Shown: positions 12,473 to 23,135 of the stretch, piece after piece | How the letters are laid out: every line of letters starts with the position of its first letter | Position numbering within the stretch: the stretch's first letter is position 1 | DNA from: Candidatus Yanofskybacteria bacterium RIFCSPHIGHO2_01_FULL_44_17 | GTDB taxonomy: Bacteria; Patescibacteriota; Minisyncoccia; 2-02-FULL-40-12; IGHO2-01-FULL-4-A | Direction of reading: 5' to 3' | Length of the DNA stretch: 32,179 bases | NCBI GenBank assembly: GCA_001794195.1 | Contig: MGJI01000007.1 | Coordinates: 1-32,179, forward strand | Position numbers and translations under genes: made by a program | The notes under the pieces: model-generated | Database searches by the model: none | Seen by the model: the letters and a program-made list of their open reading frames with translations, nothing else | Told to the model about the DNA's origin: nothing

Positions 12473-14047
12473 CTACTCGCCGTTTTCTTTTTGAGAAAAT
12501 ATGAGGGCGACTGTCGTCACAAACAACAAAAATGCCCTCTCGTCAAAAATCGCAACATCAGTCAAAGAATAAATTAAAACCCAAGGAATAAAAAGCAGGG
12601 CTCCAGCGAAATAAATAGTTTGTAGCTTATGGTTCGTAGTTTGTAGAAAATTATTATAAACCTTTTGCAGGAGAAGCCATAAAAACCAAAGGGCAAAAAC
12701 AAGTGCGGGAATACCCATCTCAGCGGCTATGTGTAAGTAAAGATTGTGGGCAGACGATCCTGCCTTTGCACGTGCCAGATCCTCCCCCACCACGACCGGA
12801 AAATTACCAATGCCGACACCCAGTAATGGGTGTTTTTTTATTGAGCGAAGCGAGTCCTTCCAAATCTCAATTCGGCGGGCATTTGAAGTTTCCGATATAT
12901 CTATCAACGAGCGTACGCGAGCTCCTAGCAGTGCCGTATCCCCTTTTGCCATCTGGAATTGATCTGTAGCCAATATGTAATATGCTGGTCCAAAGAGTAA
13001 AAAGAATATAGTCAAATACGAAGCTAAATAGGAAAAAATATATCGACATCGCAAGTCCTTATTTAATGGCTTGCGATGTCGATATATTAAAAAACCGGCC
13101 CAGATTGTAGAGGTCGCACCCGCTGCCCAGATACCCCTGGTGCCACTCAGAATCGCCGCCAAGAAGATTATGGGTACGAAAACGACCAAGATATTAGCCC
13201 TGGTTTTTAGTATTACCTTAAGATTGTCCGAGTTTTTTTTGAAAACTCTTTCTAGGGCCAGTGCCAGAACCGTCGGTAGACCCAAAAGTAGAAATATTGG
13301 GAATGAGTGCGAGTCTGGAAAAATTGAAAACATGCGCAGGGATAGTTGGTCACCGAAATATGCAAACCACGTATTGGCTCTAATAGCGGTATCAGCCCAG
13401 GCGTTACCAAATAAATTGCGCTGAACCACTCCACCCCAGAAATCTACGAACTGAAAAATATCCATATAATAAGTCGAAATTTGTTGGAGTATTCCGATGA
13501 GGGCAACGATTATCGTGGGAATGGCAATGTTTTTAATTAATCTTTGGCTGAAATCCTGGTTTTTTTTAACTAAATCATAAATTATGACTCCAATCAGGGA
13601 TAAATTGATGAAATATACTATTCGCTTAACCGCTAGTACGGTACTATCTGCCTGAGTCGCAGAAAGGATGGCCAGTATCAAGATGCCCAAAAGTAGAATA
13701 GTAGCCTTATGATTTCGCCAGACAATCTGTAGTTTTAAAATACGATCGTATTTAAAGGCGACACGTGATAAACCCAAAAACCATTTAATGAAAATCAGGC
13801 AAGAGAGAATACGCCACATATTGAGTGAATCAAAGCCGCCTGTAATTGGTATCGCGATGAAAAACGGAATTGAACGCACAAAAAAAGCCGTCGAATCTTC
13901 AAGTGACGCCAATAACACATAGGCTGTCAGTGCCAGTGTCCAGTATGGCACAACTGTCCGCGGCAAAATCCCGGCTATAAGCAAAAAGAAAATTGCTATA
14001 TGACAAAAAAACATGGTATTGACATTTAAATTCACTTTTGTTATCAT
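12473..14047 (-). CDS. O-antigen ligase / Wzy-like polymerase family membrane protein
   Basis: Polytopic; HPLLGVGIGNFPVV...SAHNLYLHIAAEMGIPALVF. Confidence 0.85.
   Translation of the reverse strand: MITKVNLNVNTMFFCHIAIFFLLIAGILPRTVVPYWTLALTAYVLLASLEDSTAFFVRSIPFFIAIPITGGFDSLNMWRILSCLIFIKWFLGLSRVAFKYDRILKLQIVWRNHKATILLLGILILAILSATQADSTVLAVKRIVYFINLSLIGVIIYDLVKKNQDFSQRLIKNIAIPTIIVALIGILQQISTYYMDIFQFVDFWGGVVQRNLFGNAWADTAIRANTWFAYFGDQLSLRMFSIFPDSHSFPIFLLLGLPTVLALALERVFKKNSDNLKVILKTRANILVVFVPIIFLAAILSGTRGIWAAGATSTIWAGFLIYRHRKPLNKDLRCRYIFSYLASYLTIFFLLFGPAYYILATDQFQMAKGDTALLGARVRSLIDISETSNARRIEIWKDSLRSIKKHPLLGVGIGNFPVVVGEDLARAKAGSSAHNLYLHIAAEMGIPALVFALWFLWLLLQKVYNNFLQTTNHKLQTIYFAGALLFIPWVLIYSLTDVAIFDERAFLLFVTTVALIFSQKENGE
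13037..13088. repeat. Perfect 19-bp palindrome with 14-nt loop inside the O-antigen ligase CDS
   Basis: AATATATCGACATCGCAAG (13037-13055) / CTTGCGATGTCGATATATT (13070-13088). Confidence 0.85.
14019..14047 (+). promoter_or_regulatory. sigma70-like promoter TTGACA-N17-TATCAT
   Basis: TTGACA 14019-14024, TATCAT 14042-14047, inside the 5' end of the divergent ligase CDS. Confidence 0.65.
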
Positions 14048-18132: not shown

Positions 18133-18159
18133 ACGGCCGCCCGCTTAAGAGATAAACTT

Positions 18160-18349
18160 TAGTGAGCCCATTATCATTTCGAGAGTTCTGTCGAAGCCGA
18201 GCGGGCACGGTGTTGTGGTTTAATTTACGCAGAGCGAATGAAGTGAGCGGGTGGTAAATTATGCCACAACGAGCGAGGCGAGACAAAAAGTGCAGTGAAG
18301 CTTGCATCCCCGCTGGGGATGCTAAACAGAACGTCTCGAGAAATGATGA
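18160..18349. repeat. Structured dispersed repeat, copy 1 (190 bp)
   Basis: Near-identical to 22340-22521; contains GCATCCCC-gct-GGGGATGC hairpin and TTGTGGTTTAATTTAC / GTAAATTATGCCACAA arms. Confidence 0.9.
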
Positions 18350-18367
18350 GGGGCAGACAAACAAAGT

Positions 18368-19375
18368 TTATCTTTTAGCCAGAATATTCTTTTTATAAAC
18401 CTCCAAATTATCCAGCACAATGCCCGTTCCCTTGGCTACGCAAAGCAGCGGATCGTCGGCAATCCTGGCCGCTACGCCAGTAATCCTGGTAATTAAGACA
18501 TCTATATTTTTAAGAAGTGCTCCGCCGCCGGATATGACGATGCCGCGGTCCATTATATCAGAGCAAAGCTCAGGAGGTGTTTCCTGCAAGACATTTTTAA
18601 CAGTTTGTACTATCTCGCGAAGCTGTTCCTGCATGGCTTCGGTTATTTCATTTGATGACAGCTCTATTGTCTTAGGATAACCAGTTGTCAGGTCGCGTCC
18701 TCGGACATTTATTTTTTCTTCATTAGTCTGTTTAACGGCATTGGCTATGGCTATTTTAATTAACTCCGCCGTCCTTTCCCCTATTGCTAGACCGTGTTTC
18801 TTTTTAACATATTCAACAATTGCCTGATCAATTTTATTGCCTCCGACCCTAGCCGAATCCCAGCTGACTATTCCCCCAAGGCTTATAACCGCGACATCAG
18901 AGGTGCCGCCTCCAATATTTAATATAAGGTTGCCCACCGGGCTATTGATGGGCACCTTGGCCCCTATAGCCGCTAAAACGGGCTCTTTAACCAGATAGGC
19001 AGCCTTAGCCCCGGCATTTATCGTTGCCTCTATTACGGCACGACGTTCGGTGGATGTAATACCTGCCGGTACAGAAACCAAAATTTCAGGCTTGTAAAAC
19101 CCGAATCGCCCGACGGCCTTATTAATAAAATACTTGAGCATCGCCTCAGTAATACGATAATCGGCAATAACCCCGTCGCGCAGAGGTCGGGAGACCACAA
19201 TGCTGTCCGGGGCACGACCGAGCATTTCTTTGGCGTAATTACCAACGGCGATAATTTTATTGTCCAGGATTGATATGGCGACAACCGAAGGCTCATTTAT
19301 TACAAGTCCCTTGCCGGGCACAAAAACAAGCGTATTGGTTGTTCCTAGATCAATGCCGATTTTTTTTACAAACAT
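18368..19375 (-). CDS. mreB: Rod shape-determining protein MreB
   Basis: IGIDLGTTNTLVFVPGKG, SVPAGITSTERRAVIEA, NIGGGTSDVAVISLGG, GIVISGGGALL. Confidence 0.96.
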   Translation of the reverse strand: MFVKKIGIDLGTTNTLVFVPGKGLVINEPSVVAISILDNKIIAVGNYAKEMLGRAPDSIVVSRPLRDGVIADYRITEAMLKYFINKAVGRFGFYKPEILVSVPAGITSTERRAVIEATINAGAKAAYLVKEPVLAAIGAKVPINSPVGNLILNIGGGTSDVAVISLGGIVSWDSARVGGNKIDQAIVEYVKKKHGLAIGERTAELIKIAIANAVKQTNEEKINVRGRDLTTGYPKTIELSSNEITEAMQEQLREIVQTVKNVLQETPPELCSDIMDRGIVISGGGALLKNIDVLITRITGVAARIADDPLLCVAKGTGIVLDNLEVYKKNILAKR

Positions 19376-22307: not shown

Positions 22308-22339
22308 ATGTTTTTTAATCGCAATGAGCAAAAAGATGC

Positions 22340-22521
22340 TAGTGAGCCCCTTGTCATTTCGAGAGTTCTGTCGAAGCCGAGCGGGCACGGTGTTGTGGTT
22401 TAATTTACGCAGAGCAAAACGGGTGGTAAATTATGCCACAACGAGCGAGGCGAGACAAAAAGTGCAGTGATGCTTGCATCCCCGCTGGGGATGCCAAACG
22501 GAACGTCTCGAGAAATGATGA
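22340..22521. repeat. Structured dispersed repeat, copy 2 (182 bp)
   Basis: Same orientation and order as 18160-18349; 8 nt shorter around AGAGC(GAATGAAGTGAG)CGGG. Confidence 0.9.
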
Positions 22522-22529
22522 ATGGCGAG

Positions 22530-23135
22530 CTATCTTTTGGCCCACTGCGGAGCCTTTCTGGCTTTTTTGAGACCGTATTTGCGTCTTTCCTTTTCTCGCG
22601 AATCACGAGTAAGATAGCCCGCCTTACGAAGTTTTTTTGAAAAATTAATGTCGAAAAGAGTTAATGCTCGGCTTAAACCAAGTCTAACTGCATCTGCCTG
22701 TCCATGCGCTCCCCCTCCGCTCACCTTAACCGTAGCCTTGAAACGATTAAGCGACTTTAATTTTTTTAGAGGAGCTTCGATAATGTTTTGCAACGGTATG
22801 GCCTTGAAGTATTCATAATAAGGCTTACTGTTTATAGTGATTATCGCCTTTTCTTCGGAAGGCTCTGGATCTGTTGATTTTTTGGTGTAGACACGAACTC
22901 TTGCCGTCGCTTCCTTGCGCCTGCCGACGGCTTCAAAGTACTTTTCAACCGCATCGCTAGATGCTTTTATTTCTACCGCTTGACTCGTTTCTGTTAACTC
23001 CTGAGACACTAACTCCTCCGCTGGGGTAACGGCTTGTATTATTTCTTTTGTGTCTTCAAGTTTTTTCTTAGGCTTAACTTTAGTAATCGTTGAAGCCCTC
23101 GGCTTTTTAGTTGTAGTTTTTTTTGTAACCATCAT
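22530..23135 (-). CDS. rpsI: 30S ribosomal protein S9 with long N-terminal extension
   Basis: KYFEAVGRRKEATARVRVY...GGGAHGQADAVRLGLSRAL...KKARKAPQWAKR. Confidence 0.96.
   Translation of the reverse strand: MMVTKKTTTKKPRASTITKVKPKKKLEDTKEIIQAVTPAEELVSQELTETSQAVEIKASSDAVEKYFEAVGRRKEATARVRVYTKKSTDPEPSEEKAIITINSKPYYEYFKAIPLQNIIEAPLKKLKSLNRFKATVKVSGGGAHGQADAVRLGLSRALTLFDINFSKKLRKAGYLTRDSREKERRKYGLKKARKAPQWAKR

Follow-up and report, generated by a model that had tools for sequence, protein, structure and literature searches.

A family of short palindromic repeats with a conserved three-way-junction fold in CPR (Patescibacteria) genomes

A palindromic repeat family in the CPR

A repeat present twice in a 32,179-nucleotide stretch of DNA from Candidatus Yanofskybacteria bacterium RIFCSPHIGHO2_01_FULL_44_17 (contig MGJI01000007.1, positions 1 to 32,179, hereafter the window) belongs to a large CPR (Patescibacteria) family that had not been catalogued before. 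The elements of this family have a size of roughly 120-190 bases. We consider it probable that they are short non-coding mobile palindromic elements, whose folded single strand would be the conserved working part. The strongly conserved core may leave room for a host function.

Copies in the source genome

Copy 1 (18160-18349, plus strand, the element as first reported) and copy 2 (22340-22521, plus strand) have the coordinates and the shared orientation given in a first-pass annotation of the window; they are 92% identical and lie 4.2 kb apart. The covariance-model matches extend over 18175-18345 (model R2, 64.6 bits, E 1.7e-16) and 22355-22517 (R2, 65.4 bits, E 9.8e-17), respectively. A third full-length copy, with 87% identity, was found on contig C21 of the same genome (G000), between a Nudix-type gene and comEC. 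In addition, a relative from a different genus (G005) has one copy adjoining the end of rpsI, as copy 2 does in G000. The short distance between copies 1 and 2 would suit a local duplication in the window, with only two copies, no family and no covariation. However, this explanation is refuted by the third copy on another contig, the copy in G005, more than a hundred family members and the covarying fold described below, and we give it next to no credence.

The annotation had called the repeat highly structured. The RNA fold of copy 1 reaches -84.3 kcal/mol, compared with -56.4 (sd 4.4) for shuffled sequences (z = -6.4). The hairpin GCATCCCC-GCT-GGGGATGC named there is present at 18304-18322, and so are the long arms TTGTGGTTTAATTTAC/GTAAATTATGCCACAA (18213-18228/18254-18269) and the near-inverted ends, where pairing in the flanks of both copies reaches further outward than had been noted. 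The setting was also correctly described: each copy is flanked by a plus-strand ORF and by the 3' end of a minus-strand gene, which is mreB (18368-19375) for copy 1 and rpsI (22530-23135) for copy 2.

Conserved fold and folded strand

The alignment of 101 members revealed a common three-way-junction fold. P1 is the long outer stem and P3 is a hairpin with an NCGCUGG loop. P2 is composed, in this order, of the pairing UCC/GGA, the core helix GCC-GA-GC/GC-GA-GGC with tandem G.A pairs (P2a), a one-sided bulge of 7 nt (GCAYGGU) and a free hairpin (P2b). In copy 1, the 5' strand of P2a (GCC-GA-GC, 18196-18202, plus strand) pairs with GC-GA-GGC at 18273-18279 via the tandem G.A pairs. The conserved 7-nt bulge GCACGGT is located at 18205-18211 (plus strand, alignment A3), hairpin P2b at 18212-18270 (plus strand) and hairpin P3, with its conserved CGCTGG loop, at 18304-18322 (plus strand). 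P2b differs between members in both length and sequence. The conserved letters are central, not terminal.

Covariance modelling, which the annotation had proposed, gave covariation well above the shuffle and slide controls. The stems are variable in sequence and keep their pairing. Double changes fill 874 cells, compared with 327 in shuffles, and occur at 35 of the 36 pairs; P1 varies at all 13 of its pairs. The covariation score was 0.544, compared with 0.197 for shuffled alignments and at most 0.165 when the partners were slid. Pairs in P2b, P3 and P2a have APC values of 100-145, and shuffling gave 23.6 at most. The covarying columns are 27-117, 29-115, 31-113, 36-109 and 37-108 in P2a, together with the non-canonical 33-111 and 35-110, and 151-164 and 150-166 in P3. 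The tandem G.A pairs are exchanged for Watson-Crick pairs on both sides (G.A for U-A or G-C; A.G for U-A, A-U or C-G). In one member of each sample the bulge G and the loop C are jointly switched to C and G, a hint of a possible tertiary contact between bulge and loop. The second sample, which comes mostly from other families and was aligned to the model itself, gave the same picture of the fold in 71 non-redundant rows.

Mismatches in P1 identify the folded strand. There were 83 G.U against 15 A.C and 88 G.A against 10 T.C in the first sample, and 87 G.U against 43 A.C in the second. Since G.U is far above A.C, the G/A-rich strand, which is the plus strand in the window, is the folded one. 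This strand may work as RNA or as single-stranded DNA.

Distribution

Covariance model R1 has a match in 117 of the 384 genomes of the class (about a third, at a rough E-value of 0.001 or less), with up to at least 9 copies per genome; all copy numbers are lower bounds because at most 9 candidates were scored in each genome. Model R2, whose E-values are also rough, has matches in 27 of 380 genomes of the phylum (E of 1e-4 or less), 20 of these 27 being outside the class. About 70% of the class genomes have no R1 match, three congeners of the host among them, and G002 has a divergent member only.

The weak class-wide matches share two common blocks, GCCGAGCGGGCAYGGTGT and ACGAGCGAGGCGAG, which flank an unrelated hairpin. 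A scan of genome contigs with the exact core pattern gave no match. Across about 85,000 species scanned, the two-block pattern was present in 14 stretches, and every one of them with a lineage name belongs to the CPR (Berkelbacteria, Taylorbacteria, Jorgensenbacteria, Parcubacteria and Patescibacteria). No member of the family was detected in phage, plasmid and viral collections. No description of a CPR element of this kind was found in the literature searched, a search that had preprints and most subscription papers outside its scope.

Position relative to neighbouring genes

For copies outside genes, in the two samples combined, the 3' side of the element lies a few bases from an opposite-strand stop codon in 76 cases, against 24 with the mirror arrangement, according to mechanical ORF calls around the copies. 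The orientation is strong in the first sample (46 vs 8, p 1.4e-7) and weak in the second (30 vs 16, p 0.054). Most copies thus have a folded strand antisense to the gene they abut, which argues against a role in the 3'-UTR. The annotation had offered a structured 3'-UTR RNA as one identity of the repeat. The strongly covarying single-strand fold agrees with the structured part of that proposal, but the 3'-UTR part finds no support in most copies, as these adjoin the stop codon of a gene to which their folded strand is antisense, and a sense-direction 3'-UTR function was rejected by the strand test.

The neighbours are unrelated housekeeping genes, encoding RNase J (3 of the first 20 scanned), RuvA, SerRS, HisRS, EF-G, FtsZ, GroEL, RpoC, SecY and others. 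This diversity means that there is no single cis target. The element is found directly 3' of the RNase J gene in three families (L037, L070 and L092); two copies are directly 3' of ruvA and two of serS.

The element may instead be a structured RNA that benefits the host, either a small RNA or an element at 3' boundaries to which an RNase binds or which stops antisense or read-through transcription, with copies spread passively by recombination. The junction conserved across the phylum, the covarying stems and the possible tertiary pair of bulge and loop are what such an RNA would show, and the preference for sites just after housekeeping stop codons, with RNase J at 3 of the 20 neighbours scanned first, points in the same direction. 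However, an RNA useful to the host agrees poorly with the lack of a match in about 70% of the class genomes, three host congeners included, and with the clustering of copies by genome, the in-frame insertions within conserved genes and a folded strand that is antisense to the abutting gene. We regard this explanation as unlikely.

Copies inside genes

Only about 5-7% of the copies are intragenic. All nine that were judged, seven in the first sample and two in the second (L194 was left out), are in frame and free of stop codons. The seven host proteins of the first sample are Mfd, TsaD, LepA, Tgt, a glycosyltransferase and two O-antigen-ligase-like proteins, and some of these copies are inside a Pfam domain. 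Since the frame is open and there are no stops, translation of the insert (about 48 aa in Mfd, LepA, TsaD or Tgt) is the simplest reading, and not an intron. A self-splicing or otherwise RNA-excised intron would account for a structured, conserved core located within conserved genes, but excision would not need the frame-keeping and lack of stops seen in all judged intragenic copies, and most copies are intergenic and antisense, so that an intron is hardly tenable. Tandem genes around the element were also considered as halves of one split gene; this was rejected, as the ORF ends show separate genes with shifted frames.

Mobility

Comparisons between genomes indicate that copies insert at new sites and multiply within individual genomes. 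Of 111 copies taken from 21 genomes, 88 have their nearest relative within their own genome, against 5.6 with shuffled labels; this clustering could come partly from gene conversion between copies. Further copies and empty sites, which the first-pass annotation had named as checks, both exist, as the third copy in G000, the 117 class genomes with a match and the empty sites in relatives attest. The element that G000 has at the 3' end of mreB is missing from its congeners G003 and G004, in which nothing but the stop codon and a short terminator is present there, and G002 and G005 carry a divergent subfamily. At the hisS/HIT junction the element is present in G255, and G002 and G003 are without it, the two genes directly adjoining. 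No clean target-site duplication was obtained at these mreB and hisS/HIT empty sites, where the relatives are too divergent for exact junctions. P1 might itself be a target duplication.

Groups of 2-3 copies, spanning some hundreds to some thousands of bases, were seen in G737 (C12, 59171-59504, and C4, 60409-63038) and in G694 (C1, 160649-160937), and clustered copies of this type include head-to-head pairs. In G199, two sites at which its congener G255 has the element are occupied by other palindromic or AT-rich repeats (L183 and L184), which suggests that some gene junctions attract several repeat types. A different hairpin cluster, with a GCTAGCCTGCGAGTC loop, is found at the same rpsI position at the rpsI 3' ends of G003 and G004 (L160 and L161); in L161, the gene end seems to be present as inverted and direct duplicates.

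The search for a Y1 or RAYT transposase suggested in the annotation bears on another explanation, in which the element is a non-autonomous, REPIN-like transposon of single-stranded DNA that is moved in trans by a Y1 transposase (IS200/IS605 or RAYT). Folded single strands are the usual substrate of Y1 transposases, and a Y1 domain is present in 46 of the 73 genomes checked. However, the expected link did not emerge: Y1_Tnp was found in 26 of 36 high-copy and 19 of 36 zero-hit genomes (p 0.14), no significant association, where zero-hit genomes are those without a match in the class search, by which weak matches can be overlooked. Ten of the 36 high-copy genomes have no Y1, among them the single-contig G110 with its 5 copies, and the conserved letters are in the centre and not at the termini. 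Movement by a Y1 transposase is therefore quite unlikely. Reverse transcriptase (RVT_1) also gave no significant association (15 of 36 high-copy and 21 of 36 zero-hit genomes, p 0.24).

Outer arms and proposed mechanism

Pairing of the flanks continues past the model (score 8 or more) at 76% of the loci, against 17% when the right flanks were swapped, and the more distant flanks show no relation to one another among the copies in a given genome. The outermost left P1 arm of copy 1, AAGAGATAAACTTT (18147-18160, plus strand), lies outside the family-homologous part and pairs with the outermost right arm AAAGTTTATCTTTT (18363-18376, plus strand), which is overlapped by the last codons of mreB and includes its stop codon. 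In copy 2, the outer right arm (22530-22549, plus strand) is the rpsI coding sequence itself, its last 20 nt, of which the outer left arm CGCAATGAGCAAAAAGATGCTAG (22320-22342, plus strand) is an imperfect inverted copy. In G000 and G005 alike, about 20 coding bases of rpsI are mirrored by the far arm. The idea that a terminator palindrome already present at the site serves as the target fits L122, but was rejected because it fails for the LepA and rpsI copies, in which coding sequence is mirrored.

In the mechanism that we favour, of a mobile element working through its folded strand, this single strand (RNA or single-stranded DNA) would be recognised by some enzyme or host process, or would itself act, during copying, and the core would for this reason be kept as the stems drift. 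From the mirrored flanks we infer that host sequence is copied into the opposite arm, either upon insertion or by template switching at a later time, which would give each copy its own outer P1. Surviving copies would be those at sites of low harm, which are positions behind stop codons and, for in-frame copies, the loops and linkers of proteins. It is also conceivable, though unlikely, that the G/A strand is an RNA with a ribozyme-like or RNA-guided activity of its own that spreads via RNA or cDNA, its 3' end being joined beside stop codons and fold-back copying producing the gene-specific outer arm. If true, this would be a minimal, protein-free selfish RNA across CPR lineages.

Comparison with known elements

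The nearest known kind, by analogy, is the Rickettsia palindromic element. As summarised in PMC10969869, these elements (Ogata 2000, 2002) are about 150 bp long, palindromic, present in many copies, often in frame in unrelated genes, and translated. The CPR element resembles this description in being palindromic, about 100-150 bp, multi-copy and in frame in unrelated genes. It differs in belonging to another phylum, in its one conserved multi-helix junction, in its locus-specific outer arms and in its location mostly after stop codons.

REPINs and RAYT-associated REPs are likewise short, dispersed intergenic palindromes that cluster by genome, but the CPR element has no Y1 association and a far larger conserved core, with the conserved letters in the centre. 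The GTAG or CGTC tag at the end of REP hairpins did not stand out in the alignments on inspection. MITEs, including BIME, ERIC and Correia elements, are also non-coding and dispersed, with inverted ends; in the CPR element, however, the terminal arms differ between members, even within one genome, and no parental transposon was found. The MITE/BIME-like label of the annotation is appropriate for the dispersed and mobile character of the repeat, seen in its many copies, empty orthologous sites, in-frame copies in genes and clustering by genome. It is not appropriate as an ordinary label, as members lack shared, conserved terminal arms and there is no association with Y1/RAYT-type transposases.

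In integrons, the folded strand of attC is opposite to the gene it follows. The CPR element shares this strand relation, the position after stop codons and a conserved fold with variable sequence, in which stems vary and pairing is kept, as would a folded single-stranded DNA site, like attC or the Xer hairpins, at which a tyrosine recombinase acts. However, it has a three-way junction instead of one hairpin, ordinary chromosomal neighbours instead of a cassette array, and copies inside genes. The attC R boxes RYYYAAC/GTTRRRY were not seen by inspection of the aligned ends, where GCGAGG and CCGAGC recur. Membership of attC is not supported, although the element may work somewhat alike, and a recombination site of this type is highly improbable. 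Finally, the compact junction, conserved bulge, hairpin loop and covarying stems recall the structured non-coding RNAs and ribozymes of Rfam, but the element matches no family of Rfam 15, in either gathering-score or E-value mode.

These comparisons point to a dispersed palindromic mobile element that would parallel the Rickettsia palindromic elements on the scale of a whole phylum and would stand out by a single RNA-like core conserved throughout it. Despite the small size and high gene density of CPR genomes, the element is present in about a third of those sampled from the class, in some of them at least 9 times, and also inside conserved genes. The conserved core opens two questions to testing: by what means protein-free palindromes are mobilised in reduced genomes, and by which route conserved proteins acquire new peptide segments. 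It could directly be used in ribozyme, RNA-protein or single-stranded DNA recombination assays.

Other repeats were observed in the source genome. One, in the window at 13037-13088, is an inverted repeat of 25 nt (92% complementarity, 2-nt spacer) located within a 524-aa O-antigen-ligase-like ORF. On contig C6, a different hairpin-rich element of about 280 bp (L004, 1501-1774) sits just upstream of an ORF start. Its ends are alike (TCATTTCGAGAG ... CTCGAGAAATGATGAGGGG) and its interior is another one, so that it is possibly a sister family.
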